From Syntrophaceae bacterium (lineage in GTDB: Bacteria; Desulfobacterota; Syntrophorhabdia; Syntrophorhabdales; WCHB1-27), in contig PLSJ01000150.1 in the NCBI GenBank assembly GCA_003165115.1, forward strand, positions 1 through 27,754: 27,754 nucleotides of DNA, written 5' to 3'. The position numbers and the translations under genes are program-made. The notes beneath the pieces were generated by a model. That model was given only the letters and a program-made list of their open reading frames with translations, ran no database searches and was not told where the DNA came from. This document shows positions 748 through 24,449 of this stretch, one piece after another (position 1 is the stretch's first letter; each line of letters starts with the position of its first letter).

Positions 748-869
748 GTGAAACCTCCCCTTACAACATAGTCTTTTCAGGCGGCCCGGCTGTCTCTCCG
801 ATAATTTCACCGAGACCCGATTGCTTTCCGTCCCATCCTCACGGGTGGTTTGGCTTTATCTGCTACCTC

Positions 870-9669: not shown

Positions 9670-10128
9670 CTACGCGAGGTTCTCCCGGATGGCCTTGAAT
9701 TTCTGCGCCACTTCGTCAGTATCGACTATCATGCTGACGATGCCGGCCGATTCTTCGTATACGTCTTCCGGTATTTCCGCTTTCACTTCCGGTTCGAGAA
9801 TATGGTATATGGGGAGTCCCAACGAGACTCCCGCCAATGGACCTGCAAAGCTCGGGTCACCAACCGTCAATGTTTCCGCTGCGATCTCGGCGCCTTCGAT
9901 GTCGCTCGCTCCGAGCACAACCACGAGGTCATCCTTCCCCCGCTCATCGACCAGTTTCTTGATCTGTGACTGGCTCTCCATGTCCATCGTGCCTGCGGCT
10001 GTTCAGACGAAGCATTCGGTGGTCATGAAGGCTACTTCGGCACCGGCTGCCATCATGCAGCGGGCGATAGCGGGACCGGGGACTCCGTCCCGTTCTCCGA
10101 TGATAATGACTTTCTTGCCCTTGAACAT
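9670..10128 (-). CDS. grdA: Glycine reductase complex selenoprotein A (GrdA), Sec at codon 42
   Basis: GrdA is the small selenoprotein that takes the carboxymethyl group from component B as a Se-carboxymethyl-selenocysteine and passes an acetyl thioester to component C. Reading through the in-frame UGA at 10005-10003 gives 152 residues, close to the family length. The N-terminus [20 protein letters not shown] is typical, and the redox motif is ECFVU (Cys39-x-x-Sec42). Conventional gene calling would see only the C-terminal 105 residues. AGGAGGTAAGAA precedes the ATG. It is the only GrdA in the window, so it presumably serves both GrdE/GrdB pairs. Sec insertion is supported by the hairpin at 9968-9984. 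Confidence 0.96.
9968..10005 (-). promoter_or_regulatory. Sec UGA and bacterial SECIS hairpin of grdA
   Basis: The UGA is at 10005-10003. A stem of GAC-(A)-TGG with CCA-GTC (9984-9968, one bulged A) closes a 4-nt AGAG loop that starts 25 nt after the UGA. Stem length, distance and a G among the first two loop positions fit the published bacterial SECIS model. Confidence 0.75.
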
Positions 10129-10164: not shown

Positions 10165-11619
10165 TTATTTCCTTATGTTAGGGTTTGCCTCGAGCAGGAA
10201 CGATAAACCGTCCGAGAGCTGAGACATACGGCCTAGGAAGAGACTTCCCTTTGCCACGAACATGGTATTCTTTATACGACCCGCTTTCATATCAAGCGCC
10301 GCGTGACCCAGGAACGGCACCGCCGCCGGGATATGGCCCTGAGTGGGTGAAAAACCCGGCATGCCCCGTTGGCGCACGAAATCATCCACCGCAGAGCGGT
10401 CGATCTCTTTACGGATCGACGCAAGGGCAGCCATGATCTTGTAGTTGGTGAGCGGCGTGTTGCCGCTGCCCGCGGGCAGGGTGATCTCGGGGTTATGCAT
10501 CTCCGTGGCGTACTTGTCGATATCGATCATGCGCAGGCCCAACCGGTCGAGAGGCTTCACAATGAGGGACGTCATGATGTCCTGCTGGTTCGAACCGGCG
10601 CCGATGTTGTGCTTTCCCACGGAATCGAGGCGGATGACCGGGCTTGCCCCGTCGTCCTTGGTAATCAGGAAGGCGATGCATCCCAGCATGTCCTCGAGGA
10701 CGGGCATATTATTCTTGAGATGGCCCGAGTATTTCATGCCGATCTTCGCGAGGCATCCGCCGCCGATGACGACGACCCTGTCATAGACGCCCGCCTCGAC
10801 CTGGGCGGCCGCGTCGACAATCGCATGGATAGGCGCGGCGCAAAAGGCCTTTATATCGTGGCCCGAGGCGTTCACGCAGCGGCACATCTCTCCGATGGCT
10901 TTCGAAAGGCTCCCGCCTCCGCGGTTATACCGGTCGCCCACCGCATCTTCCGAGCAGCTCAGGATAAAATCGACATCTCCCGGCTCGATACCTGCCCGTT
11001 TGAACAGGTGGCGCATCACGAGTGCGCCTGAAGCCTTCGTGAGGAGGTTCTCCATCAGGACGTGGGCCTTGAGGGTATCGTCCGCGTCGTGGTCCCTCCG
11101 CAGACAGCCGACGACCTCTCCATCGAAAAAGAGGGGGAGGGCTGCGTCGTCGTTTATCTTGTCAATAATCTTGCCGATGGCGACACCGCTCCCCAGCTTC
11201 GACAGGTCGGCCTCGGAAATAAGGGGATGGGACGCCACCCTGTCCCTGATTCTCCCGATGAATTCGGGAGCGAGCCAGACCAGGTCGAAGTCATCGGCGG
11301 CCTTCATCCAGCCGTAAAACTGGTCTTCCGCGAGTATCTCACCGAAGGGGCCGTCCTTCCGTGCGTCCTTCACCTGATGCTCGTACCAGGGTTGGGGGAT
11401 ATCGTGAAGCGCGTCCGGGTGCAGGTTGCCGACAAACACCTGGTTGGGCGGATAGGCCACCGCCTCCTCGAAGCTCCTCACATGGGCATAGATCTTTTTC
11501 TCAAGGTCACCGCCGTGTCCGCCCGAAACAGAGATGTCCCTGATCGGTTTCGAGCCGTACCGGACGAAATTGGGGACATGCACAAGCGCATACGCGCACT
11601 CTTTCACTACAACAGCCAT
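10165..11619 (-). CDS. grdC: Glycine reductase complex component C subunit beta (GrdC)
   Basis: GrdC is a thiolase/FabH-like protein that accepts the acetyl group from GrdA. With GrdD it releases acetyl phosphate in clostridia. The protein here is 484 residues. It has YNRGGGSLSKAIGE, a FabH-like nucleophile context KAFCAAPIHA (Cys near 260) and the family-typical end GFSPTQGHIPAAVPFLGHA...KGSLFLGRMSQLSDG. The ATG at 11619 has GAGGTG upstream; a GTG at 11628 is the alternative. It lies 18 nt after the thioredoxin gene and 36 nt before grdA. No GrdD gene is present in the window, so the acyl acceptor might be CoA rather than phosphate, or GrdD is encoded elsewhere. Confidence 0.94.
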   Translation of the reverse strand: MAVVVKECAYALVHVPNFVRYGSKPIRDISVSGGHGGDLEKKIYAHVRSFEEAVAYPPNQVFVGNLHPDALHDIPQPWYEHQVKDARKDGPFGEILAEDQFYGWMKAADDFDLVWLAPEFIGRIRDRVASHPLISEADLSKLGSGVAIGKIIDKINDDAALPLFFDGEVVGCLRRDHDADDTLKAHVLMENLLTKASGALVMRHLFKRAGIEPGDVDFILSCSEDAVGDRYNRGGGSLSKAIGEMCRCVNASGHDIKAFCAAPIHAIVDAAAQVEAGVYDRVVVIGGGCLAKIGMKYSGHLKNNMPVLEDMLGCIAFLITKDDGASPVIRLDSVGKHNIGAGSNQQDIMTSLIVKPLDRLGLRMIDIDKYATEMHNPEITLPAGSGNTPLTNYKIMAALASIRKEIDRSAVDDFVRQRGMPGFSPTQGHIPAAVPFLGHAALDMKAGRIKNTMFVAKGSLFLGRMSQLSDGLSFLLEANPNIRK

Positions 11620-11637
11620 AGCTTTCACCTCATATGT

Positions 11638-11952
11638 TTATAACAGCTTTCCGATCTTCTCTTCAATCGCGGCGACGTCCACATCACCGCCGACGCGGTC
11701 GACCTCCTTGCCGTCCTTGAACAACAGCAGGGAGGGAAGTCCCATCACTTTCAACTCCATGCAGAGCCTCCTGTTTTTCGGGACCTCCACCTTGGCGAAT
11801 TTCACCTTTTCGCCGTACTTCTCTTCCAGCGCCTCAAACTGAGGCAGCAGCTTCATGCACGGCACTCACTGGGGGCCCCAAAAGTCGACTATCACCGGCC
11901 CCTGGGCCCCGGTCACTTCCTCGCTGAACGTTTCCTTCGTGATCTCCTTCAC
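11638..11952 (-). CDS. trxA: Selenocysteine-containing thioredoxin (UVPC active site)
   Basis: Thioredoxin of 104 residues, read through the UGA at 11868-11866. The active site is DFWGPQ-U-V-P-C, with Sec29 where the nucleophilic N-terminal Cys normally stands and Cys32 as the resolving thiol. The rest is classic (KVEVPKNRRLCMELKVMGLPSLLLFKDGKEVDRVGG, containing the cis-Pro). The GTG start at 11952 is preceded by GAGAGAGAGG and follows the grdB1 stop. Ignoring recoding leaves a meaningless headless 75-residue protein. In Grd systems thioredoxin re-reduces the selenoproteins with electrons from TrxB, whose gene is in the same operon. A perfect SECIS-like hairpin supports the Sec reading. Confidence 0.92.
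11831..11868 (-). promoter_or_regulatory. Sec UGA and SECIS hairpin of the thioredoxin gene
   Basis: The UGA is at 11868-11866. GCCTCA-GTT-TGAGGC (11845-11831) is a perfect 6-bp stem with a 3-nt loop starting with G, 26 nt after the UGA. This fits the bacterial SECIS model. Confidence 0.82.
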
Positions 11953-11978: not shown

Positions 11979-13295
11979 TTAGCCGCCGATCCGGCCCTTT
12001 GTCTCTTTGTTATCCGCCGGTTCTCTTGCGAGCGCGTCGAGCGCTTCCAGCACGATCCTGCGCCTGAGCGCCTTTTCCTCGGCGCGCGAGGTGCGGGGGT
12101 CGCCGAGCGGACTCGTAATGCCGATTCCCTGCGTTATTCTGTTTGCGCGAATTGTCCTGGCGATAGGCAGAAGGGCCGTGACAAGAACAGCGGGTATGCC
12201 CGCCCTCTCGAACTCTTTTTCAAGCACTGCACCGCAGCGCGTGCCCGTGCCTCAGGTCGAGGTGAGGAGCACACCCGAGACGTTGGCCAACGCCAGCTCC
12301 CGGGCCATCTCCCTGCCGATGCGGCGGGCGTTGTCCATGGTGGTGGCCACACCGGTGGTCACCAGAAAATCGGGGAAGAGCGACTTGAAGACGCCCTCCC
12401 TTTCAAGGTCTTCCATGACGTCGACCGGGAGGAGCCTGTTCGGGTCCTCGTTGACAAAAACCGTATCGAACCCGCGGTGCACGGATTGAAATTCTTCGGC
12501 TCCATGTGCGGCCAGGTCCGCAACGCGGTATTTTGCCCAGCGGCTCGCCCTTGCCGATTCGATATTGTCCGGATTTTCCCTCGGGACCAGTCCCCCTTCG
12601 GTGACGAGCGCGATGGTCGCTCCCTTCAGGTCGGCAACGGCCGGGGCAGGTGAAACGACGTCGAGGTCGGGCAGGAGGATCTCCGTTCGGAACGGGACCC
12701 CTTTCATCTTCTTCAGCAGGAGGTCGACGGCGCGTTCCGCGGCCGACTTCGAAGCCAGCACGTTTTGTTTTATGCCCCGTGGCAGGTAACCCTCCGCCTC
12801 CGGTCCCCCGATCGGCTCCCGGCCGAAAAGCCTGATTCCGAGGTCGATCATCTTCGGCATCGCCTTGGGCATCCCTACGGCGGTGTTGCCCGTCTCTATG
12901 ATGTAGATGCCTTTCCTGTAGAGGTCGACCCCCGGATTTTCGGGGAACATGCCGGTCACCGCGGGCAGGCCGAGCTCGTCCTGCACGCGGCGCGTCATCT
13001 CGCCGCACGCGATGCCATACCTGCCCGCGTTGAAGGCGGGGCCGGCGATGAACAGATCGCACGGCCGGGCGCCGATCATGTCGAGCAGTGCCTGGGAGGC
13101 GGCTTCCATCTCCTCGGAAAAGTAGTTGTCCCCGCAGAGGACGGTGGCAACCACCCTGCCCCGGTCCTTCAGGATACGGTCGATCAGGAGGCCGGGACCC
13201 ACGGGTCCGTCTATCACCATGGGGGGCACCCCGGCCTTGTCCTCGCCGCCTATCTGACCGAAAAACTGGTTCACATAATGGATGATACGCAGCAT
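11979..13295 (-). CDS. grdB: Glycine/betaine reductase-like component B selenoprotein GrdB1, Sec348
   Basis: GrdB carries the selenocysteine of the substrate-specific component B, which attacks the substrate C-N bond. Reading through the UGA at 12254-12252 gives 438 residues, the normal family length. Conserved features are the start HYVNQFFGQIGGEDKA, CGDNYF, AGPAFNAGRYGIACG, TGMFPENPGVDLYR, IALVTEGGLVP, VNEDPNRLLPVDV and the Sec site TSTUGTGTRCGA. The ATG at 13295 lies one base beyond the grdE1 TGA stop, with GGAGGGG inside grdE1, so the two are translationally coupled. The tail after Sec (82 residues, ending near GITSPLGDP...RRRIVLEAL) is also conserved. Its substrate cannot be told from sequence. 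Confidence 0.96.
12225..12254 (-). promoter_or_regulatory. Sec UGA and SECIS hairpin of grdB1
   Basis: The UGA is at 12254-12252. CGCTGC-GGT-GCAGTG (12239-12225) forms a 6-bp stem with one G-U pair and a GGT loop starting 18 nt after the UGA. The same element recurs in the other two GrdB-type genes. Confidence 0.82.
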
Positions 13296-13296
13296 G

Positions 13297-14556
13297 TCAA
13301 CGCCCCTCCGTTGTCAGGTGATTAGAGCCGATCTGGCTTATGGCGGTCGCGAGAAAGCGCAGGGGCATGCGAAGCTGCCCGTCCAGGGGACCGGGGAAGT
13401 CATGCATGGCGCGACCTCCCACGATCCTGCCCATGGGCAGCAGGTCCACGACGGCGTCGATGTTCCCGACGCTGACCATTGCATCGGCATTGTCGGAGCC
13501 GGCCAGAAGGGGCATCTCTCCGGCCCCGTCCGGGCCGAGCCATTCGTTATCGACCAGAACGGTCCTGATGCCCAGTTTTTCGCATTCATCGCAATTCTGC
13601 ATGAGGTCCACGTCCGTATGGCCCCCGCCCTCCTTCGTGAGGATAACCCCGTCGACGTGGAGCACGTTCTTCAAGAGGTTAGCCGCCATCATGGAGGTGC
13701 GCTTGATGTCGGTCATGGAGGTCGGCTCGGGCGTGATGACGACGCCCCCGAAGCACAGCTCCTTGCCGTGGCGTTTGTACAGACCGGCAACGACCGGATG
13801 GTTGAGCAGGGAATAGGTGTAATTCTTTATGGCGACGGAGAGGTTATAGTGTCCGCACACGATGGCCCCATCGAGGATTTCATTCGGATGGAGTATAGTC
13901 GGATAATAGTGCCGGCTGTTGTCCCCATAGACGAAGGGCTCCCTGGAATCTCCGTGGCTGTGGAGCTGGAACAGGTACCCTACCCGCGGCAGGGACGTTT
14001 CCTGCTTCCCCAGATCGAGGTCGAATATCTGCGCCTCGTCCGGCGTCACCCCTTTCGTGGCGGCCGCCAGATAGACCGAAGCCTTGCACCCCGCCTGTTT
14101 CAGGGCGAGCCCGTATTCCACGAGCGACGTCCCCGCACCCGGCGCGGTCAGGAGGCAGACATTGTGGGTTTTTGAATAAGGGGTCAAGGGCGCGCCGTTG
14201 CCATCCATATCGACGAGGCCGCCAATGAACCCCTGCGCTGCGCCGATCTCGAAGACCGTGGCGCCGCGGAGGACCCTGGTCACACCCTCGCCTGACGGGC
14301 CCGGCCACCGGAGCATGCCGGGAAAATAGGACTCCACGCCCGTCTTGATGCGCGGCTCGATGATGTCCAGCACGTTGGTGATCCGGGCATTCTCTCCCGG
14401 CCGGACAAGCTCTATATCGATGACGGCGATGCGGTCGTCCGAGGAAAGCTGACGGATCAGCTCGTTCTTATCGATCGAGAGGAGGCCGTCCGAGAACCGG
14501 GTCTTTTCGGAGAATCGTATCTCCCTGACATCGAAGTATTCCATTTCAAACTTCAT
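13297..14556 (-). CDS. grdE: Glycine/betaine reductase component B proprotein homologue GrdE1
   Basis: GrdE forms component B with GrdB. In clostridia it is self-cleaved to yield a pyruvoyl group from an internal Cys that may bind the substrate amine. This 419-residue homologue has family features (LVRPGENARITNVLDIIEPR, YSKTHNVCLL, LHPNEILDGAIV, HGKELCFGGVVIT, LTKEGGGHTDVDLMQNC). After HPNEILDGAIV it reads CGHYNLSV. There is a Cys near 234 but no Asn-Cys at the place where I recall the clostridial processing site, so pyruvoyl formation is uncertain. The ATG at 14556 follows AGAGAGG; a GTG at 14559 is the alternative. It is coupled to grdB1, and the natural stop is a UGA without a fitting Sec context. 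Confidence 0.93.
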   Translation of the reverse strand: MKFEMEYFDVREIRFSEKTRFSDGLLSIDKNELIRQLSSDDRIAVIDIELVRPGENARITNVLDIIEPRIKTGVESYFPGMLRWPGPSGEGVTRVLRGATVFEIGAAQGFIGGLVDMDGNGAPLTPYSKTHNVCLLTAPGAGTSLVEYGLALKQAGCKASVYLAAATKGVTPDEAQIFDLDLGKQETSLPRVGYLFQLHSHGDSREPFVYGDNSRHYYPTILHPNEILDGAIVCGHYNLSVAIKNYTYSLLNHPVVAGLYKRHGKELCFGGVVITPEPTSMTDIKRTSMMAANLLKNVLHVDGVILTKEGGGHTDVDLMQNCDECEKLGIRTVLVDNEWLGPDGAGEMPLLAGSDNADAMVSVGNIDAVVDLLPMGRIVGGRAMHDFPGPLDGQLRMPLRFLATAISQIGSNHLTTEGR

Positions 14557-14599
14557 CACGCCTCTCTTTCGGGGTCGTTCGCCGTCTTTACGTTCCGCC

Positions 14600-15529
14600 T
14601 CACCGCGCCTCCAGCAGGTACTGCTCCAGGCCCACCGCCGCCAGGGCGCCGTCGCCCACCGCCGTGGTTATCTGGCGAAGTCTCTTCGTCCTCACGTCTC
14701 CCGCGACGAACAGGCCCTTCGTCTTCGAGGCAAGGTCTTCGCCCACCTCAATGAACCCGGCCCTGTCGCGGTCCACGAGGTCTCCCAGGAAAGCGGTTTT
14801 CGCCTCGAGACCCACAAACACGAAGACCCCGTCCACCTTGAGTGTGGAGCGCCCGTCCGACTGCGTGTCCCGGAGAAGGACCGACTCCACCTGCCCTTTG
14901 CCGATGATCTCCAGGGGCGCCTTGTTCCACAAGAATTCGATGTTCCCTTGCCTGAAAGCCCTTTCCTGAATGACCACCTGCGCCCGAAGCCGGTCTCTCC
15001 GATGGACCACGGAAACGCGCCTGCAAAGGTTGGCAAGCGTCATCGCCTCCTGGATCGCGGAATCGCCGCCTCCTATTACCGCCACGTCCTGGTCCTGGAA
15101 AAACATGGCGTCGCAGGTGGCGCAATACGAAACGCCCCTTCCCACGAACTCCTTTTCACCGGGGATGCCCAGTTGCTTCCATTCGGTGCCGGCCGCGAGG
15201 ATGACACCCCTCGTCTCGATCTCGGACTCGCCTGATGTCACCAGAAACCTTCCGTCGTCCTTCCTGGAGACGAGGGACACGTCGAAAAATTCCTTGACCA
15301 CCAAGCCGAAGCGCTTCGCCTGTTCGGCCATGAGGCGCGTCAGGTCCGCCCCCGATATGCCCTCGGGAAATCCCGGATAATTATCTATCTGCTCGGTCCT
15401 GGCCGCCGTTCCGCCGAGGACGCCCCTCTCCACGAGTGCCGCGTCTATGCCTGCGCGTCTGAGGTAAACGCCCGCCGTCAGGCCCGCCGGCCCTCCACCT
15501 ATGATGACCGCTTCATGGAATTCACTCAT
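14600..15529 (-). CDS. trxB: Thioredoxin reductase
   Basis: FAD/NAD(P)H-dependent thioredoxin reductase of 309 residues, the usual low-Mr length. It shows the N-terminal FAD motif GGGPAGLTAGVYLRRAG, the redox dithiol CATC (in VSYCATCDAMFF), the nucleotide-binding GGGDSAIQEA and HRRDRLRA segments (basic residues are consistent with NADPH) and the C-terminal FAD motif GLFVAGDVR. It should reduce the Sec-thioredoxin encoded 3 kb downstream in the same operon, completing the electron path to GrdA and GrdB. It follows the regulator gene after 51 nt. Confidence 0.95.
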   Translation of the reverse strand: MSEFHEAVIIGGGPAGLTAGVYLRRAGIDAALVERGVLGGTAARTEQIDNYPGFPEGISGADLTRLMAEQAKRFGLVVKEFFDVSLVSRKDDGRFLVTSGESEIETRGVILAAGTEWKQLGIPGEKEFVGRGVSYCATCDAMFFQDQDVAVIGGGDSAIQEAMTLANLCRRVSVVHRRDRLRAQVVIQERAFRQGNIEFLWNKAPLEIIGKGQVESVLLRDTQSDGRSTLKVDGVFVFVGLEAKTAFLGDLVDRDRAGFIEVGEDLASKTKGLFVAGDVRTKRLRQITTAVGDGALAAVGLEQYLLEAR

Positions 15530-15580: not shown

Positions 15581-16897
15581 TCACTGCTGCCAATAAAAGA
15601 CGGTCGGCTCCTTCACCTCTGTTTCGAGGGACTCCAGGGCCTTCATCACGATTTTCCTTCTCAGCTCTTTTTCTCGTCTGGATGAGAGTTCCGGATTGCC
15701 CAGGGGATGGGTGATTCCCACGCCGGGTATGATCCTGCGCGCACCCATGATGAGCGCGGTCGGGGTCAGCGCGGTAATCAGGGCCGTTGGAAGGCCCGTC
15801 TTTTCGATCTCGTTGGCGATCACTGCACCGCAGCGAGTGCCCGTGCCTCAGGTGGAGGTCAGGATAACGGCCGACACCTGTTGATTTCTCAATTCCTGTG
15901 CGATGCTTTCACCGAGCCTGCGGCTGTCGTCGAGCGTGGTGCCGACGCCGGTGGTCGTGTAGAAATAATCGTGTATCTTCGAAAACGTTTCGTCCTCTTT
16001 CAGCTCCGTCAGGACATCCACCGGGAGGAGTCTGTTCGGGTCTTCGTTGACATACCGGTTATCCCATCCACGGTCGATGGATTCGAACCGCCCGGCCGGC
16101 AATTCGTTCATATCCGCGATACTGTACCTGAGGAACCGGCCGGCCCTCGCGGATTCAAGCCTGTCCGGGTTTCCCGCAGGCACGAGCCCGCCCTCGGTGA
16201 CAAGGGCAATGACGGTGCCCGAACGCATCCGCGTCCAGGGGATCGCGCGCGATTCGCGGCCCATCGCGGAAGGACTTCCTTCGATCCCCCGATGGCGATC
16301 GCGGCCTTCGCGCGACATGCGCGTCAGGGTCTCCAGGACCGTTTCACTGACGAATTCGAGACTGCCCGCGAGGTCAAACGAGTCCTCGACGTGCAGCTCT
16401 AGACCTTCGGCAATGTTGATTTTTCTCCATAAGCTATCTCTTTGCGGCACACTATACACGGCCATGCCCGCGCGCCGTTCCGGAAGGGCCGGCACCAAAG
16501 GGGTCAGGCCGCCCGAATGCATCGCATCCCCGAAAGGAGAACGGCCGCGCAAAAGGACCTCCTCCAGCGCCTCGTTTCGGGAGGTCTTCGTGACCTCGGC
16601 TATCTTTTTCAGGGTGAGGTTTTCCGTCTGGAGCAGCTTGACGACGAGGACCTGCAGGATGTGGCGGTACGCGTACCTGGCCTCTCTTCCGGTATGGGGC
16701 GCCGGATCTATCAGGCCGACCTGGTGGTAATAATTGATGGTCCGCTTCCCCGGCACGTCCACCACCTTATGGCGGACCTGCTTCCTGACGAACAGGGGGA
16801 CCAGCTTCGAAAGATGGGCGAGGAAATCGGACAGACAGATATCTCTTTCATGCGCGAGCGCCGTCAAAGTCCAGAATGTCGCCGAATCCGCTTTCAT
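15581..16897 (-). CDS. MerR-type regulator fused to a GrdB C-terminal selenocysteine domain (Sec350)
   Basis: A 438-residue fusion read through the UGA at 15850-15848. Residues about 39-105 are a MerR-like winged helix-turn-helix (KRTINYYHQVGLIDPAPHTG, then LVVKLLQTENLTLKKIAEVTK). About 117-225 is an unrecognised linker/sensor region (SLWRKINIAEGLELHVEDSFD). Residues 228-438 match the C-terminal half of GrdB (IALVTEGGLVP, YVNEDPNRLLPVDVL, LTSTUGTGTRCGAV) with the Sec site intact. The GrdB N-terminal half is absent and replaced. It is the first gene of the minus-strand operon, next to the divergent promoters, so it probably regulates both arms and itself. The likely role is a transcription factor that senses substrate, selenium supply or redox state through Sec. 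Confidence 0.93.
15821..15850 (-). promoter_or_regulatory. Sec UGA and SECIS hairpin of the regulator gene
   Basis: The UGA is at 15850-15848. CGCTGC-GGT-GCAGTG (15835-15821) is identical in sequence and distance to the grdB1 element, although the flanking codons differ. Confidence 0.82.
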
Positions 16898-16921
16898 GCC
16901 TGCGCGCCCCTTCTCTACCTC

Positions 16922-16951
16922 ATCTTAACTACTTTCAGTATTTACTGTCAA
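16922..16951 (-). promoter_or_regulatory. Promoter of the minus-strand Grd operon with MerR-like operator
   Basis: On the minus strand TTGACA (16951-16946) and TAAGAT (16927-16922) are separated by 18 nt. The dyad CAGTA-TT-TACTG (16936-16947) lies largely within the spacer, where MerR-family proteins bind. Transcription would begin near 16915, close to the ATG at 16897. Autoregulation by the encoded regulator is inferred. Confidence 0.6.
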
Positions 16952-17016
16952 GATATTTTTTCTATGTGCCGAAGTGCAGGTAGATAACCCCAGTTTCCGT
17001 TAAGAATATCATTACA

Positions 17017-17071
17017 TACGGACCGTACTCCTACATAATTGTCTTGACAAGTCGATATGGAGTTTTATAGG
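17017..17071 (+). promoter_or_regulatory. Promoter and operator-like dyads for the plus-strand arm
   Basis: A perfect TTGACA (17044-17049) is followed after 16 nt by TATAGG (17066-17071). An imperfect dyad centred on ATAT (17050-17063, 10 of 14 symmetrical) fills the spacer, and a perfect TACGG-A-CCGTA dyad (17017-17027) lies upstream. It would drive the binding-protein gene at 17178. Confidence 0.5.
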
Positions 17072-17177
17072 CTACGCTCGGCATTGACAATGCGTCGACA
17101 AACGGTGAGCGAAGGCGCAGTTAAGCGAGCAGGGACCATAAAAGAAGGACGTCAGACGATCAAGGGAGGTTCCACAA

Positions 17178-18374
17178 ATGTATAGCCGACAAAGAAGAAT
17201 TGGCCTCGTGCTCAGGGGCGCCGGTGTGTTGGGATTGGCTTTTTCGCTGCTCCTCGCTATAGGAGGAACGAGCGTCAAGGCGGCGGAGCCCATCAAGATA
17301 GGCGTCGTCCTGTGCATCACGGGATGGGGAGGACCGCTGGGGACCCCTGGGAAAGAGGCGATAACGATCGCCGCCGAGGATATCAACCGGCGCGGCGGGG
17401 TCCTGGGCCGGCAGATCGAGCTGTACTTCGAGGACGACCAGAGCAACCCGACGAATGCCGCCCTGGCGGCCACAAAACTGATCCGCGACAAAAACGTCGC
17501 CGCGGTGATAGGCTCGAACCTCACGGTCTTCTGCATGCCCATGCTCCCGATTTTCGAGCGGGAGCAGGTCCCGAACATCTCCCTCGGCGCCGGTCACGAG
17601 ATTACGGACCCCCTCAGGAAATGGGTGTTCCGCATTCCCCTCACGGATTATCGACTCTCTCCGAGGATGCTCAAGTTTACGGTGGAGACCCTGGGCGCCA
17701 AGAGGATCGCGCTTCTCTACAGCACGGACGCCTCCGGCATGATGGGGGCGAAGGGTGTCCTCGACAACGCGCGCAAGTTCGGAGCCACCATCGTCGCCAA
17801 CGAGAAATTCGACCCCAAAGATACGAACATGATCCCGCAGCTCACGAATATCAAGGCGGCAAACGCCGACGCCATAATACTCTACACCTCCGCGGCCCCC
17901 GCCGCCGTTGTCGCCAAAAACTACCAGCAGCTGGGCCTGAAGATGCCGGTCGTCGCGAGCCACGGGGTCCCGACTCCGGAATTTCTGAAGCTGGCCGGGA
18001 CGATAGTGGAAAACGGGCGCTGGATGCTTTACGGCATGAAGGCCCTGTACGCGGAGCAGCTTCCCTTGAATGAGCCGTGGCGCAAGAACATTTATGATCC
18101 CTTCAAGAAGAGCCTCAAGGAAAAGTACGGTAAATCCGACATCACGCCCTTCCACGCAAACGGACACGACGCCATGTACATCTTGGCCGAAGCCTTGAAG
18201 ATTGCCGGTACCGACGATCGCGCAGCCCTGAGGAACGCCTTGGAAAAGGTAAAGTACAAGGGCCTGCTGAATGCGGAATTCGCCTATACCGCTACCGACC
18301 ATGACGGACAAACGGGCGAGGCTTACGAGCCGCTGATCAGAAAGGACGGCAAGTGGTGGCCGTATAAGAAGTAA
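17178..18374 (+). CDS. livK: Liv-type ABC transporter periplasmic substrate-binding protein
   Basis: Type I periplasmic-binding-fold protein of 398 residues. A Tat/Sec-like N-terminus (MYSRQRRIGLVLRGAG, then a hydrophobic stretch) ends at VKA-AEPIKIG. The mature part has the family motifs IKIGVVLCITG, GVLGRQIELYFEDDQSNPTNAALAATKLI, AVIGSN and a late NGHDAMYILAEAL segment. The ATG at 17178 follows AGGGAGG. It should deliver substrate to the LivH/LivMG/LivF complex, which has no binding protein in its own cluster. It lies on the other strand, 9 kb from livH, just across the regulator. Ligand unknown; the family includes amino acid, amide and aromatic acid binders. Confidence 0.92.
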   Translation: MYSRQRRIGLVLRGAGVLGLAFSLLLAIGGTSVKAAEPIKIGVVLCITGWGGPLGTPGKEAITIAAEDINRRGGVLGRQIELYFEDDQSNPTNAALAATKLIRDKNVAAVIGSNLTVFCMPMLPIFEREQVPNISLGAGHEITDPLRKWVFRIPLTDYRLSPRMLKFTVETLGAKRIALLYSTDASGMMGAKGVLDNARKFGATIVANEKFDPKDTNMIPQLTNIKAANADAIILYTSAAPAAVVAKNYQQLGLKMPVVASHGVPTPEFLKLAGTIVENGRWMLYGMKALYAEQLPLNEPWRKNIYDPFKKSLKEKYGKSDITPFHANGHDAMYILAEALKIAGTDDRAALRNALEKVKYKGLLNAEFAYTATDHDGQTGEAYEPLIRKDGKWWPYKK

Positions 18375-18691: not shown

Positions 18692-19642
18692 TTGTGCGCG
18701 GTCGTTTTCTTCATGGTGTCCATAGCATTCAATACAGGGGTTCGGGCGGCATCGTATCCCGAGCGGACAATTACACTGATCGTTCCCTACGCGCCGGGCG
18801 GCGTGACCGACCTCGGAGCGCGGGCCTTCGCCGACGCGCTCCAGCGCGAGCTGAAACAGACGGTTGTCGTGGTGAACAAACCGGGCGGGGGCACGACTAT
18901 CGGTGGTAACACCATCGCAACGGCAAAACCGGACGGGTACACCCTGGGCTTCCTGCCCACATCGGCGAGTATTCCGGAAGTGTTCACCTATTTCAACGAG
19001 GCCCCGTATACAAGCAAAGATTTGAAGCCTGCGGCGCGCGTGCTCGGGCCGGTTCTCGCCATCACGGTGAAAGCGGATTCCCCCTATAACAGTCTCAAGG
19101 ACCTCGTGGAGGCCGGGAAGAAAGCGAAGACGATGAAGATGGCTACGCACGGGAAGAGTACCCTCGGTTATCTCGTGCTGAGAACAGTGGGCAAAGCGGA
19201 GAAGGTGAACTTCACCGATGTCCCTTTTGCCGGCGATTCCCAGATTGTTCCTGCCATTCTCGGCGGACACGTCCCGGTGGGCACCCCGGCTTACCCGGCG
19301 ATCAAGTCCCTCGTCGATGCGAAACAGCTCAAGGTGTTGGCCCTCTGCCTTGAGAAACGGGCTGACTTTGCGCCCAACGTCCCTACGGTGGCCGAGCTTG
19401 GGTATAAGCTTGCCTTTGTCTCCTACCTGGGGATCTTTGCACCGAAGGACACCCCTGACGATATCGTGAAAAAGCTGAGCGATGCGGCACGGAAGATTAC
19501 CTCGGATGCCGATTTCCGGACAAAACTCAACAATATGGGCACTCAGGTGACTTATCAGGACACCGCCGCCTTCCGGAAGTCGATCTCATCGTACAAAGAA
19601 AATATGGCGGCTTTTTTCAAGGAAGAGGGATTGGTGAAATGA
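18692..19642 (+). CDS. tctC: Tripartite tricarboxylate transporter binding protein TctC; start uncertain
   Basis: Periplasmic solute-binding protein of the TTT family (BugT/TctC type). The mature protein begins near AASYPERTITLIVPYAPGGVTD, followed by VVVNKPGGGTTIGG and PDGYTLGF motifs, and captures an organic acid for TctA/TctB. The lowest supported start, TTG 18692, gives 316 residues and a signal peptide lacking its basic part. The frame is open upstream with a fitting basic segment (GPKRSRITLG). An ATG with a perfect AGGAGG stands in frame at 18599, but its fifth codon is UGA (18611-18613). Either a leader tetrapeptide MNLN is made, the UGA is read through, a non-AUG start is used, or the sequence has an error or mutation. 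Confidence 0.88.
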   Translation: MCAVVFFMVSIAFNTGVRAASYPERTITLIVPYAPGGVTDLGARAFADALQRELKQTVVVVNKPGGGTTIGGNTIATAKPDGYTLGFLPTSASIPEVFTYFNEAPYTSKDLKPAARVLGPVLAITVKADSPYNSLKDLVEAGKKAKTMKMATHGKSTLGYLVLRTVGKAEKVNFTDVPFAGDSQIVPAILGGHVPVGTPAYPAIKSLVDAKQLKVLALCLEKRADFAPNVPTVAELGYKLAFVSYLGIFAPKDTPDDIVKKLSDAARKITSDADFRTKLNNMGTQVTYQDTAAFRKSISSYKENMAAFFKEEGLVK

Positions 19643-19667
19643 GTTTCACTGGAGGAATGGAGGATCT

Positions 19668-20138
19668 GTGAAGGGCCGTATCGATACAGGCGGTTTCGGA
19701 TGGGTTATCCTGGGGTCCCTCATCTGTTTTCTTGCCTGGCGGGTCAGGCTCGGCACCTTCAGCGAGCCCGGGCCGGGCTTCATCGCATTCGGAGCGGGTT
19801 CTTTCCTCTGCGTAGTCGGCATCATTATGCTTCTCTCCGGTCTTGTTTCCCCGGCAAGCACGGAAGAGAGGGTCCCCTGGGATAGACTCTTCCCCCGGGG
19901 GGTGCGATTGAGGCTGGCGTACACGGTATTGCTTCTCTTCCTCTACACGATGTTCCTCGACAAACTGGGCTATGTCATCGGCACCTTCCTGCTGATGTGG
20001 GGGCTCTTCCTGAATTGGGAGCGCCCGCGATGGGTGACGAGCATGGTTGCCTCCCTCGTCACGGTCGGCGTCACCTACCTCGTTTTTGAGGTCTGGCTCC
20101 ACTGCCAGCTTCCCCGAGGAATTCTGCCACTGGGTTGA
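19668..20138 (+). CDS. tctB: Tripartite tricarboxylate transporter small membrane subunit TctB
   Basis: Small integral membrane subunit (156 residues, about four hydrophobic helices) of a TTT-family secondary transporter. It is poorly conserved in sequence, as is usual, but its place between tctC and tctA, its length and the pattern (GFGWVILGSLICFLAW, GPGFIAFGAGSFLCVVGIIMLL) identify it. It begins with GTG at 19668, preceded by GGAGGAATGGAGG, 25 nt after tctC. It works with TctA in the inner membrane. Confidence 0.88.
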   Translation: MKGRIDTGGFGWVILGSLICFLAWRVRLGTFSEPGPGFIAFGAGSFLCVVGIIMLLSGLVSPASTEERVPWDRLFPRGVRLRLAYTVLLLFLYTMFLDKLGYVIGTFLLMWGLFLNWERPRWVTSMVASLVTVGVTYLVFEVWLHCQLPRGILPLG

Positions 20139-20147
20139 AGGAGACGA

Positions 20148-21656
20148 ATGAGCTTAGTCCATGACCTCTTCTACGGTTTCGGCATTGCCATGCAGCCCTG
20201 GAACCTTCTCGCATGTTTCCTCGGCGTTTTCATCGGAACCCTCGTGGGCGTCCTTCCCGGCATCGGTCCCGTAGGCGCAATGTCCCTACTTCTCCCTATC
20301 ACCTTCGGCATCTCTCCCGTGACGGGTATCATCATGCTCGCAGGGATTTACTACGGCTCCATGTACGGAGGTTCGACCACCTCCATATTGGTAAATATTC
20401 CCGGTGAAGCCGCCTCGGTCGTCACCTGTCTCGACGGACACCAGATGGCGCTGAAAGGACGTGCGGGTCCGGCATTGGGAATAGCGGCCTTCGGCTCCTT
20501 CATCGCGGGGACGCTGGGGCTGATCGGCCTTATGTTTCTCGCCAACATACTGGCCCGTGTCGCCGTCATATTCGGCCCGGCGGAATACTTCGCCCTCATG
20601 TGGCTCGGGCTTTCCCTCGTCACCTATCTGACCCAGGGGTCGGTTTTGAAAGGGTTGACCATGGCAGGACTCGGCCTCTTCCTGAGCCTTATCGGACAGG
20701 ATGTGATCACGGGGAAAGTGCGCTTTGCCTTCGGGTTGATGGGGCTTGTGGATGGTGTGGGCCTTGTGCCCCTGGTCATGGGCATGTTCGGCGTTTCAGA
20801 GGTCCTTTTGAACCTTGAAAACCTCTACGAAAAGCGTGAGGTCATGAAAACCCGTCTGCGCGAGCTTCTCCCGAATAGGGAGGACTGGAAGAGATCGGCG
20901 GCACCTATCGGAAGGGGGACACTTATCGGGTTTTTCCTTGGAATTCTGCCGGGAGGGGGATCGGTGATATCGTCCTTCGTCTCTTACGCCACGGAAAAGA
21001 AGCTGTCGAAACATCCCGAGGAGTTTGGGAAAGGTGCGATCGAGGGCGTTGCCGGTCCCGAATCGGCCAATAATGCGGCATCGAGCAGTGGATTCATCCC
21101 CCTGTTTTCTCTCGGCATCCCCGCGAACGTCATCATGGCTCTTCTCCTCGGCGCCCTGATGATCCACGGGCTTAGACCCGGGCCTTTGCTCATCACAGAG
21201 AATCCCGAGGTCTTTTGGGGTACGGTGGCGAGTATGTACATGGGTAATGTGATGCTCCTCGTCTTGAACCTGCCCCTCATCGGCCTGTGGGTGCAGATAC
21301 TCAAAGTGCCCTACCGGACGTTGTTCCCATTGATACTGCTTTTCTGCTTTATCGGTGCATACAGCATAAGCGCCAATACGTTTGACCTGTACATAATGCT
21401 CGTCTTCGGCATACTGGGCTACGCGTTCCGCAAGATGGGCTACGAACCGGCACCGCTGGTGCTTGCCTTTATCCTGGGACCGATGCTCGAACAGAATCTC
21501 CGTCAGGCCCTGATACTTTCTGAAGGCAGCATGGCTGTCTTTGTGACAAGGCCCCTGACCGCCGCACCGCTTTTGGTGTCTCTTATTCTGCTTCTTTCCA
21601 CCATCCTTCCTTCGCTCAGGAGGAAGAGGAAAGAGGTGATAACGGAAGAGGATTAG
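20148..21656 (+). CDS. tctA: Tripartite tricarboxylate transporter large permease TctA
   Basis: Large permease of 502 residues with about 11-12 hydrophobic helices. The signature GVLPGIGPVGAMSLLLP near the N-terminus, its repeat-like partner GILPGGGSVISSF near the middle, and MYGGSTTSILVNIPGEAASVVTCLDG are characteristic of TctA. The ATG at 20148 follows AAGGAGACGA. TTT systems import citrate-like, dicarboxylic or aromatic acids by cation symport. Here the downstream genes grdE2 and grdB2 suggest the cargo is the substrate of the second B component, or its precursor. Confidence 0.94.
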   Translation: MSLVHDLFYGFGIAMQPWNLLACFLGVFIGTLVGVLPGIGPVGAMSLLLPITFGISPVTGIIMLAGIYYGSMYGGSTTSILVNIPGEAASVVTCLDGHQMALKGRAGPALGIAAFGSFIAGTLGLIGLMFLANILARVAVIFGPAEYFALMWLGLSLVTYLTQGSVLKGLTMAGLGLFLSLIGQDVITGKVRFAFGLMGLVDGVGLVPLVMGMFGVSEVLLNLENLYEKREVMKTRLRELLPNREDWKRSAAPIGRGTLIGFFLGILPGGGSVISSFVSYATEKKLSKHPEEFGKGAIEGVAGPESANNAASSSGFIPLFSLGIPANVIMALLLGALMIHGLRPGPLLITENPEVFWGTVASMYMGNVMLLVLNLPLIGLWVQILKVPYRTLFPLILLFCFIGAYSISANTFDLYIMLVFGILGYAFRKMGYEPAPLVLAFILGPMLEQNLRQALILSEGSMAVFVTRPLTAAPLLVSLILLLSTILPSLRRKRKEVITEED

Positions 21657-21759: not shown

Positions 21760-23049
21760 ATGAAGCTTCAACTGGATAGGGTGATTATCCGGGATGTACG
21801 GTTTGGCGCCACGACCGCCATCCATGACGGCGCACTGCATGTAGATAGAAGCGCGCTTCAATACCTGTTGCTGCAGGATAAAAGGTTTGCCGCGGTCGAT
21901 ATAGAACTTGCCCACCCCGGCGAAAAGTGCCGGATAACCAAAGTCCTCGACGTTATCGAGCCGAGGGCGAAGACCAGCGAGGGGGATGAGGATTTCCCCG
22001 GTGCCGTGGGTGGACAGGTGCCCGCGGGCAGAGGGAGCACGTGCGTCCTCGAGGGCGCCGCGGTTGTCCTCAGCGACTACAGGGAGAAGGTCGAGTCGGG
22101 CAGGAGCATGGACCCGAACGGAGAAATAATCGATATGTCAGGTCCCGGTGCCGAGGCAGGCCGCTATGGGAAGACCCATAACGTCGTGTTGCTGCCGACC
22201 CCGGCCGAAGGGGTGAACACGCACGAATATCTGGCCGCTTCCAAGATCGCCGGATTGATGGCCGCCGCCTACCTCGCGAGGGCAGGGAAAGGCATGACAC
22301 CGGACCGCACGGAAACGCTGGAGCTTCCCTCGCTGATGGCGACGGATAAAGCCCTGGCCGGTCTCCCAAGGGTCGTCTACATTTTTCAGATCCTCACGAC
22401 CCAGTTCGACCCGATACCGGGTGAACCCGTTCTTTACGGGATGAACGTGCCCGGCATGGTACCGACATTGCTTCATCCCAACGAAGTGATCGACGGGGCC
22501 CTTACCTCTCCCCTTCCGGCATTGAATGTCCAGACCTACCAGGTCCAGAACCACCCGATTATCAAGGAACTCTACGCAAGACATGGAAAGGACCTTTTCT
22601 TTGCCGGGGTGATCGCATCGACAGCGCCGAACAACATGGCCGAAATAGAGAGGATGTCGAATATGGCGGCAACCATGGCGCGATATGTGGTGGGAGCACA
22701 GGGCGCGATCCTGACCAAGACGGGAGGGGGGGCGCCGGAGCTTACCATGGCGAGAACGGCCCAACGCTGCGAGCGCCTCGGCATAAGGACGACCCTTGCC
22801 GTTCTCCATATGGCGGCGGATGTGAGGGGTGAGGTAACCCTGTTCAGCATGCCGGAAGTCGATGCCATCGTCAGCCTCGGGGTCCCCTTCACCCGCGTGA
22901 CCCTTCCGGCGGTGGAGCGGGTAATAGGAAGACAGCATGCGGTTCCTGGCGCCCCACCGATCGACGGTGAGATAGTGCGGACAGAAAATGGGGTAAGGGG
23001 TATCCATTGCCAGTTGGGCAGTTCCCGCATCAGGGCGGTCAAATACTAA
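21760..23049 (+). CDS. Second component B proprotein homologue GrdE2, no candidate pyruvoyl Cys
   Basis: GrdE-family protein of 429 residues with AHPGEKCRITKVLDVIEPR, GKTHNVVLLPTP, LHPNEVIDGALTS, HGKDLFFAGVIAS and ILTKTGGGAPELTMARTAQRCE. The region that carries the processed Cys in clostridial GrdE (just after HPNE..DGA) reads SPLPALNVQTYQV, and there is no Cys at all between about residues 94 and 339. A Cys-derived pyruvoyl at the usual place is therefore impossible. Either it stays unprocessed or another residue is used. It pairs with grdB2 (98-nt gap) as an alternative B component. AGGAGGG precedes the ATG. Confidence 0.92.
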   Translation: MKLQLDRVIIRDVRFGATTAIHDGALHVDRSALQYLLLQDKRFAAVDIELAHPGEKCRITKVLDVIEPRAKTSEGDEDFPGAVGGQVPAGRGSTCVLEGAAVVLSDYREKVESGRSMDPNGEIIDMSGPGAEAGRYGKTHNVVLLPTPAEGVNTHEYLAASKIAGLMAAAYLARAGKGMTPDRTETLELPSLMATDKALAGLPRVVYIFQILTTQFDPIPGEPVLYGMNVPGMVPTLLHPNEVIDGALTSPLPALNVQTYQVQNHPIIKELYARHGKDLFFAGVIASTAPNNMAEIERMSNMAATMARYVVGAQGAILTKTGGGAPELTMARTAQRCERLGIRTTLAVLHMAADVRGEVTLFSMPEVDAIVSLGVPFTRVTLPAVERVIGRQHAVPGAPPIDGEIVRTENGVRGIHCQLGSSRIRAVKY

Positions 23050-23147
23050 GGAGCGGACCCCCGGTGCGTGCCGGATCGGGTTATCGGGCACGACGGTGTC
23101 ACGCGACCGGAGCGGGGCAAGCCCCCAAGATTTGTGGAGGTGTTGAA

Positions 23148-24449
23148 ATGATAAGAGTGGCTCTGTATCTCAACCAGTTTTTTGGCGGCGTTGGGGGGGA
23201 GGATAAAGCGGACCTGGCGCCCCGCCTCACCGAAGAGATCGTCGGTCCCGCCAAGGCCTTCCGCGCCGCCCTGGGCGATCGGGGCGAGGTGGTTGCCACG
23301 GTCATTTGCGGCGACAATTACTTCGCCGAGAATATAGAAGGCGCAAGTAAAGAAGTGAAAGAACTGTTGGCTCCCTATCGGCCCGACCTTCTTTTTGCCG
23401 GACCCGTGTTCAACGCGGGGCGGTACGGCATCGCCTGCGGAGCCGTCTGCAAAATGGCTCAGACCGACCTCAAGATCCCGGCGATAACCGGCATGTACCG
23501 GGAAAACCCTGGGGTGGACCTCTACAGGAAAGACGTCTACATCGTCGAGACCGGGGATACCGCGCGCTCCATGGCTGATGTCGTCAAGAGAATGACGACA
23601 CTGGCATGGAAGCTCCTTGCGGGTGACAAGATGGGAAACCCGGCCGACGAAGGGTACTTTTCACGAGGTTGGCTGACAAACGAAGCCTCAGAGAAGACAG
23701 GGGCAGAAAGGGCCGTGGATATGCTTTTGCACAAGCTGCGGGGAGAGCCTTTTGAGTCGGAAGTTCCGCGGCCGGCATACGACAGGGTGAAGCCCGCCCC
23801 CGCCATAAAGGACCTCCGTTCGGCCACGATCGCCCTCGTCACCGATGGCGGACTGGTCCCGAAGGGAAACCCCGACAAGATCGAGGTGACCGCTGCAACG
23901 CGCTTCGGTATATACGACATCACGGACAAGGACAGACTCGATCCTAACGGTTACGACGTCAACCATGGCGGCTACGATTCCGTTCTGGTGAGGCAGGATC
24001 CGAATCGCCTCGTTCCGGTAGATGTGATGCGGGAGCTGGAGAAAAAGGGAGTCATCGGGACCCTGCATAACCGCTTTTACAGTACCACCGGTCTGGCGTG
24101 TATCGTGGAGGTGATGAAAAAGATAGGCCAGGCTATCGCCGAAGACCTCAAGCGGGAAGGCGTCTCGGGCGTTCTCCTGACTTCTACCTGAGGGACGAGC
24201 ACGCGTTGCGGTGCAACGCTCGCGAAAGAAATAGAAAGGGTCGGGATACCTGCCGCCCATTTGTCCGCCGTCGCCCTGGTGGCCGAAATGGTCGGCTCCA
24301 ACAGGATCCTGCCTGCGCAAAAAATTGTCAGTCCCCTAGGCAATTCGGCCCTCAAGCCGGAGGACGAAATTCAACTACGCCGGTCTCTTGTCGAAAAGGC
24401 GCTCATGACTTTGCAGACTGTGATAGAGGAACAAAAAGTGTTTTCTTAG
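23148..24449 (+). CDS. Second component B selenoprotein GrdB2, Sec348
   Basis: GrdB-family selenoprotein of 433 residues, read through the UGA at 24189-24191. It begins MIRVALYLNQFFGGVGGEDKA after GTGGAGGTG and shows CGDNYF, AGPVFNAGRYGIACG, ITGMYRENPGVDLYR, IALVTDGGLVP, RQDPNRLVPVDVM and the Sec site LTSTUGTSTRCGAT. The post-Sec tail (VSPLGNSALKPEDE...EKALMTLQTVIEEQKVF) closely follows the clostridial pattern and is more canonical than that of GrdB1. It is encoded with GrdE2 and a TTT transporter, so it likely acts on a different substrate than GrdB1, while sharing GrdA, GrdC and thioredoxin. Confidence 0.95.
24189..24219 (+). promoter_or_regulatory. Sec UGA and SECIS hairpin of grdB2
   Basis: The UGA is at 24189-24191. 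GCGTTGC-GGT-GCAACGC (24203-24219) is a perfect 7-bp stem with a GGT loop starting 18 nt after the UGA. Relative to grdB1 a C-G pair has become U-A and a G-U pair G-C, so pairing is conserved while sequence changed. Confidence 0.88.

Follow-up and report, generated by a model that had tools for sequence, protein, structure and literature searches.

GrdB, the selenoprotein B of glycine, sarcosine and betaine reductases (PF07355, TIGR01918), has a C-terminal domain with the motif UGTGTRCGA, whose selenocysteine (Sec) is encoded by an in-frame UGA with a SECIS element. PrdB corresponds to the C-terminal half alone and is not known to carry a helix-turn-helix (HTH). One review relates the PrdB of D-proline reductase to the C-terminal half of GrdB and describes it as Sec-containing in clostridia (PMC13188914). 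For most prokaryotic selenoproteins a role in redox reactions is assumed (PMC9312934). A Sec protein with a regulatory label is the FmdB-family 'putative regulatory protein' of the GOS data (PMC2398784; also in PMC13188914); the GOS table holds two such Sec sequences and the available portions of text mention no HTH. The MerR regulators CueR, CarH, NmlR and TipAL, found as fold matches to the protein described here, have the same winged HTH. CarH offers a further parallel in taking its effector domain, a cobalamin domain, from metabolism.

The protein described here is encoded in the window, by which we mean the whole stretch of 27,754 nucleotides analysed, from the draft genome (G000) of a Syntrophaceae bacterium. 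The gene (15581-16897, minus strand, as are its parts below) comprises 438 codons and a TGA stop, with one internal TGA, at codon 350, read as Sec. A MerR-type winged HTH is present at residues 51-104 (16586-16747; Pfam MerR_1, 28.8 bits against a cut-off of 21.6). It is followed by a beta hairpin and long helix with an LELHV motif, predicted in the AlphaFold2 model at residues 157-203 (16289-16429), which may be a dimer or linker part. Residues 228-434 (15596-16216) form the C-terminal (selenocysteine) domain of GrdB (TIGR01918, 237.8 bits; domain model pLDDT 96.2), with the Pfam GRDB match covering residues 228-349 (148.7 bits). The in-frame UGA (15848-15850) specifies residue 350 within TSTUGTGTRCGA and is followed by Cys356. 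This agrees with the preliminary description, which had placed the HTH at about residues 39-105, in one frame with the GrdB C-terminal half and its Sec motif (16897 to 15581), and had counted 349 residues up to the UGA and 88 beyond it. Its further claim that the N-terminal half of GrdB has been lost is borne out by the full-length equivalog TIGR01917, of which only profile positions 224-430 are matched (231 bits against 602.2). The PrdB equivalog TIGR04483 is likewise not reached (75.9 bits against a cut-off of 300, residues 275-425). There is no support for reading the terminal TGA (15581-15583) as another Sec codon, the other two fusions read as DNA ending nearby with TAG and TGA. Neither a search of PDB sequences with the query P0001 (E 0.01) nor Foldseek with the whole fusion model (E 0.001) returned a match. 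The fold of the GrdB domain resembles LacI-type and periplasmic binding domains, which we take as a hint only.

In the fusion, a MerR module and linker stand in place of the N-terminal half of GrdB, and the GrdB domain is 43-53% identical to four aligned GrdB C-terminal halves. Most conserved GrdB residues, including Sec and Cys356, are retained. However, the His at window position 275, part of an SIHxG motif and present in 35/35 GrdB rows (P0050, omitted from this count, has it too), is replaced in the 49 fused rows by Asp (44) or Ser (5), and at position 278 the Phe or Tyr of GrdB is Trp in 49/49 fusions. Left out of these 49 rows, which also serve in the tree below, are the window's own protein (P0002) and the later find P0132; among the rows, two pairs are identical over the part used (L064 = P0046, L066 = P0034). 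Given the replaced His and the lost N-terminal half, the fusion is probably not a catalytic component B subunit. It differs from PrdB in falling far under the equivalog cut-off and in having an HTH, and from the MerR regulators above in its effector, a selenoprotein reductase domain, in its LELHV linker, and in lacking a conserved Cys before the Sec site (at most 6 of 41 fused rows have one at any position). Judging by its sequence, we class it as neither GrdB nor PrdB but as a protein of the MerR type whose effector domain is new. A second regulator-enzyme fusion was also seen (L039:1-1887, minus strand), in which a similar N-terminal MerR module is joined in frame to a different metabolic enzyme, an acetyl-CoA hydrolase/transferase, with no stop inside the 629 residues read.

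The MerR-GrdB build recurs in at least 48 protein clusters, the window's own included. The last protein search scored about 8000 candidates, those sharing most words with the query; 303 reached E 1e-40 or better and the best 120 of these were used, among which the fusions score E 4.7e-120 or better. Next below them come a fragment, P0133 (1.2e-79), which also ends at the Sec site, and then plain GrdB (1.8e-61). Precomputed Pfam annotation finds both domains in 46/48 clusters; P0008 and P0010 are annotated with GRDB only yet align throughout. By genome, fusions were found in 2/395 genomes of the phylum (the window's own and G016) and in 1/85 genomes of the class of G424, Deltaproteobacteria bacterium HGW-Deltaproteobacteria-15. 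As the genome searches scored only the best first-look candidates and the protein searches about 8000, all these counts are lower bounds. A search for more fusion DNA in the phylum of G424 apparently covered the same genomes as the 395-genome search again, G803 having the contig coordinates of G016, and a contig search gave no locus with P0001 as query and one with A2. In the databases, many family members are recorded under the source name 'DNA-binding transcriptional MerR regulator'.

The tree built on the GRDB part has 104 rows and only 122 columns and is therefore weakly resolved. In it, the 49 fused rows group together with one long-branched GrdB (SH-aLRT 95), and forcing them together changed the likelihood by +4.09 (p-AU 0.589). 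The simplest reading is a single old fusion event for all MerR-GrdB proteins. The N-terminal ~200 residues, including an LELHV-like hairpin, also exist as free-standing MerR proteins (L040, L054, L057, P0125 and P0127), so that the GrdB domain seems to have been added to a small regulator that was already complete. Two of these free-standing proteins, L054 and L057, adjoin VIT/VWA-like proteins, named by eye. An origin from a phage or plasmid was rejected: PHROGs gave no match at E 0.01, and of 17 matching plasmid records none covered more than 80% of the query, the five listed aligning with the GrdB part alone.

Among the relatives listed, 46 of 47 end at Thr, one residue before the Sec site (43/44 in one set, plus P0122, P0123 and P0132; P0042 ends slightly earlier). 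All are of 385 residues or fewer and therefore none has Cys at the site and continues; of the listed fusions 0/48 do so, in contrast to one plain GrdB, P0045, with Cys at this position. The GrdB-like P0048 and P0050 have Trp there, perhaps a UGA read under another code or perhaps a real change. These relatives are predicted proteins, and the next codon was read as DNA in three genomes (the window's, G016 and G424): it is TGA in 3/3, with the frame open for 87-90 codons beyond. Between these three fusions 54-61% of residues after the UGA are identical, third codon positions change about twice as often there as the first and second, and Sec350 and Cys356 are kept in 3/3.

The UGA is directly followed by a SECIS element (15810-15847, minus strand; 7-bp stem at 15820-15836), matched by Rfam SECIS_4 with 30.8 bits (E 0.0025), which falls short of the gathering score, 38. 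The element in G016 scores 22.9 bits, also below gathering, and that in G424 is not listed by the Rfam model. We compared the hairpin over 29 sequences (28 distinct), namely the 3 fusions and 26 other grdB-like genes, chosen by a motif filter that also dropped repeats and left out distant UGA loci without the motif (L008-L012). In this set 99.5% of cells in the stem pair, and three of the seven pairs show changes on both sides. The covariation score of 0.303 was equalled in 0/500 shuffles, and slid versions reached at most 0.143; 19/500 shuffles had at least as many pairs with double changes, and the count of pair types was not above shuffles (498/500 as high). Most of this variation comes from grdB genes rather than from the 3 fusions, in all of which the stem pairs, with one double change (C-G to U-A) in G424. 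The preliminary description had called the hairpin identical to that of grdB1; this holds for the loop and the inner six pairs, while the outermost pair is U-A in the fusion and G-C in grdB1. The same description argued that Sec is under selection here and named homologues lacking both Sec and Cys as evidence to the contrary. No such homologue was found, and the shared end point of 46/47 listed relatives, the absence of Cys, and the UGA, frame and pairing stem in three genomes indicate that the Sec site is under selection. With an in-frame UGA, a SECIS just downstream, albeit below the Rfam gathering score, and a conserved frame after it, we regard the fusion, pending proof, as a selenoprotein.

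The decoding machinery is seen in part. SelB scores over cut-off in the window's own genome, and G424 has a tRNA-Sec (73.6 bits, anticodon TCA). In G000 (75% complete) no tRNA-Sec was found over cut-off, the four matches being tRNAs for Ser and Trp. In G016 (97% complete) 0/7 matches exceeded it, and those checked, three in number, are tRNAs for Ser, Trp and Leu. That none was found in two of three genomes is the main loose end of the Sec reading.

The fusion is the first gene of a minus-strand cluster for a selenium-dependent reductase. It is followed after 51 bp by a thioredoxin-reductase-like flavoprotein (14600-15529; TIGR01292, 338.4 bits, just under the cut-off of 343.45), a GrdE/GrdG-like component B subunit (13297-14559; PF09338, 383.3 bits), a full-length GrdB1 with one internal TGA (11979-13295, by profile matches and translation), a thioredoxin with an in-frame TGA in its active site, WGPQUVPC (11638-11952, absent from the plain ORF list), GrdC, the component C beta subunit (10165-11628; NF040746, 650.1 bits) and the selenoprotein GrdA with Sec42 (9670-10128; NF040748, 218.7 bits). 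Beyond GrdA lie a zinc-type alcohol dehydrogenase, ABC transporter genes and an aldehyde ferredoxin oxidoreductase. Divergently, on the plus strand, are a periplasmic binding protein (17178-18374; PF13458, 206.1 bits), a tripartite transporter TctC, TctB and TctA (18692-21656, by family matches) and a second GrdE with GrdB2 (21760-24449; GrdE at 21760-23049, GrdB2 with an internal TGA in the frame 23007-24449, by family and SECIS matches). In all, five genes of the window contain an in-frame UGA, namely the fusion, GrdB1, GrdB2, GrdA and thioredoxin. Elsewhere in the window, a c-di-GMP-I-GGC riboswitch match (776-863, minus strand; 57.6 bits, gathering 59) overlaps the start of a choice-of-anchor C family frame (121-810).

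In the other genomes with DNA the surroundings are comparable, so that grd genes lie beside the fusion in 3/3, a point the preliminary description had proposed to check. In G016, whose contig ends 103 bp upstream of the fusion, it is followed by a thioredoxin gene, then GrdC and GrdA, then genes that by eye look transporter-like, and lastly GrdE and GrdB; the thioredoxin there reads WGPQCGPC, against WGPQUVPC in the window. In G424, GrdE follows the fusion and a divergent set with GrdE, GrdB, GrdC and GrdA lies opposite. The GrdE beside the G424 fusion (L066:13492-14501, L067:1-720) ends in an in-frame piece of GrdB (residues 107-217), the GrdB parts flanking this piece being missing there. 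Moreover, a fusion and a plain GrdB come from the same source, with equal length of the longest contig, in P0039/P0150 and P0010/P0165, which suggests, short of proof, that P0039 and P0010 too are linked to plain GrdB genes.

The fusion and the transporter genes diverge from an intergenic region at 16898-17177. Motif comparison and promoter prediction place an operator-like motif, TTGACAGTAAATACTGAAAG (16932-16951, minus strand), 34 bases upstream of the fusion start, where it overlaps the predicted -35 box. A TTGACA-N-TAAATACTG motif is common to the divergent promoters of the window and of G424, the two loci with visible upstream DNA; in G424 it reads TTGACATTAAATACTGTCAA on the divergent grdE side and TTGACACTATTTGGTGTTAA before the fusion gene itself. 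The match between window and G424 is 16/18, and 2/200 random pairs were as good. Searching for the pattern TTGACANTAAATACTG gave a single copy in G000 and a single copy in G424, each at the fusion locus, and none in G016. Allowing one mismatch adds one further G424 copy, around which inspection of 3 kb by eye showed no grd gene, and a reversed control also matches G424 once. Because the pattern was drawn from these two loci, its distribution is support and not proof. Window and G016 likewise match at 16/18 (0/200 as good), mostly through an A-rich run and TTGACA, and the G016 and G424 promoters share nothing beyond chance (192/200 as good). The G016 promoter carries another dyad. The full dyad pattern TTRACA-N8-TGTYAA is found in G424 only; even when one mismatch was allowed, neither the window nor the G016 piece contained it. 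In the MerR family, a dyad operator lies inside a promoter whose spacer is long, 19-20 bp; in the window the predicted spacer is 18 bp and the candidate motif overlaps the -35 box. TTGACA is also simply the -35 consensus.

We consider it reasonably probable that the fusion regulates, in a Sec-dependent manner, transcription of the grd (glycine-reductase-type) and transporter operons next to it. This reading draws on observed parts: the fusion and its family of at least 48 clusters, the UGA, SECIS and post-UGA frame, the lost GrdB half, the changed His, the grd context and the motif of two promoters. As a dimer, the fusion would bind where TTGACA-N-TAAATACTG overlaps the -35 box of its own promoter, and would thereby control both divergent operons. 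Sensing would fall to the GrdB domain, which has ceased to be a full component B: its Sec350/Cys356 pair would react or dock with a partner from the pathway (GrdA, GrdE or thioredoxin) and so report pathway activity or redox state. In this respect, GrdA is considered likely to interact with the Sec motif of GrdB itself (PMC13188914, review). Selenium supply would also be tied to transcription of a selenoprotein-rich operon, as the UGA must be decoded and the complete regulator would form only when selenium is available. In the structure models the domain fold continues through codon 350 and a form stopped there would be without two strands and three helices; hence the full-length protein would be selenium-dependent, and lack of selenium would leave a 349-residue form without the second half of the sensor fold.

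The same observations can be read differently. If the UGA were mostly a stop, the 349-residue MerR form would be the working regulator and read-through incidental. That 46/47 listed database proteins end there fits such an account, though gene callers stop at UGA anyway, as do the SECIS scores below gathering and the failure to find a tRNA-Sec in two of three genomes. We nevertheless find it quite improbable in view of the 54-61% of post-UGA residues kept, with their position-3 bias, the stem that pairs in all three fusions, the UGA-containing grdA, grdB and thioredoxin of the same cluster, and a predicted fold that runs through codon 350. An assembly error, a sequencing error or decay is suggested by little besides the draft state of the genomes and their many short contigs, and its probability is close to nil: the 48 or more clusters, the single tree group and the intact open frames in three genomes rule it out. 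The preliminary description had likewise allowed for HTH and GrdB parts joined only by a sequencing error; what emerged instead were at least 47 further clusters with a MerR HTH and a GrdB C-terminal domain, and the same join as DNA in two other genomes.

A further account is a bifunctional trigger enzyme, in which the GrdB domain would still work as, or replace, the C-terminal half of component B together with GrdE, and would bind DNA when idle. Stand-alone PrdB, which works with PrdA, provides an analogy, and TIGR04483 matches residues 275-425 of the fusion, which also retains Sec, Cys356 and the majority of the conserved GrdB residues. Moreover, the linked grdB1 of G424 is a remnant (107-217) after GrdE that ends near where the fused domain starts, and just one other GrdB C-terminal domain is found in that genome at E 0.001. 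This remnant may, however, be plain decay or misassembly, the window and G016 retain a full GrdB in the same cluster, and the His of 35/35 GrdBs is replaced in 49/49 fused rows. On balance we think such a dual role unlikely.

For the regulator reading, precedent was sought in the selenoprotein and glycine-reductase literature. No Sec-containing MerR-type regulator was found in what was searched, which leaves a lack of prior description unproven. The word 'MerR' is absent from the available portions of PMC13188914, PMC9312934, PMC1794560, PMC2398784, PMC8318568 and PMC5029168, and PMC10298544 has, in the portion available, one word beginning 'merr'. The components are known, and the combination of MerR with the Sec domain of GrdB is in none of the literature searched. 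Tentatively, the family may represent a new class of selenoprotein transcription factors, in which a MerR regulator captured the Sec domain of a reductase, so that selenium supply and the chemical state of the Sec-Cys pair would both decide transcription of the pathway. If this is true, Sec would be used for signalling, within a conserved family of DNA-binding regulators, and selenium supply would have a direct transcriptional link to selenium-dependent metabolism. Gene callers, moreover, would be recording the whole family as ordinary, truncated proteins.
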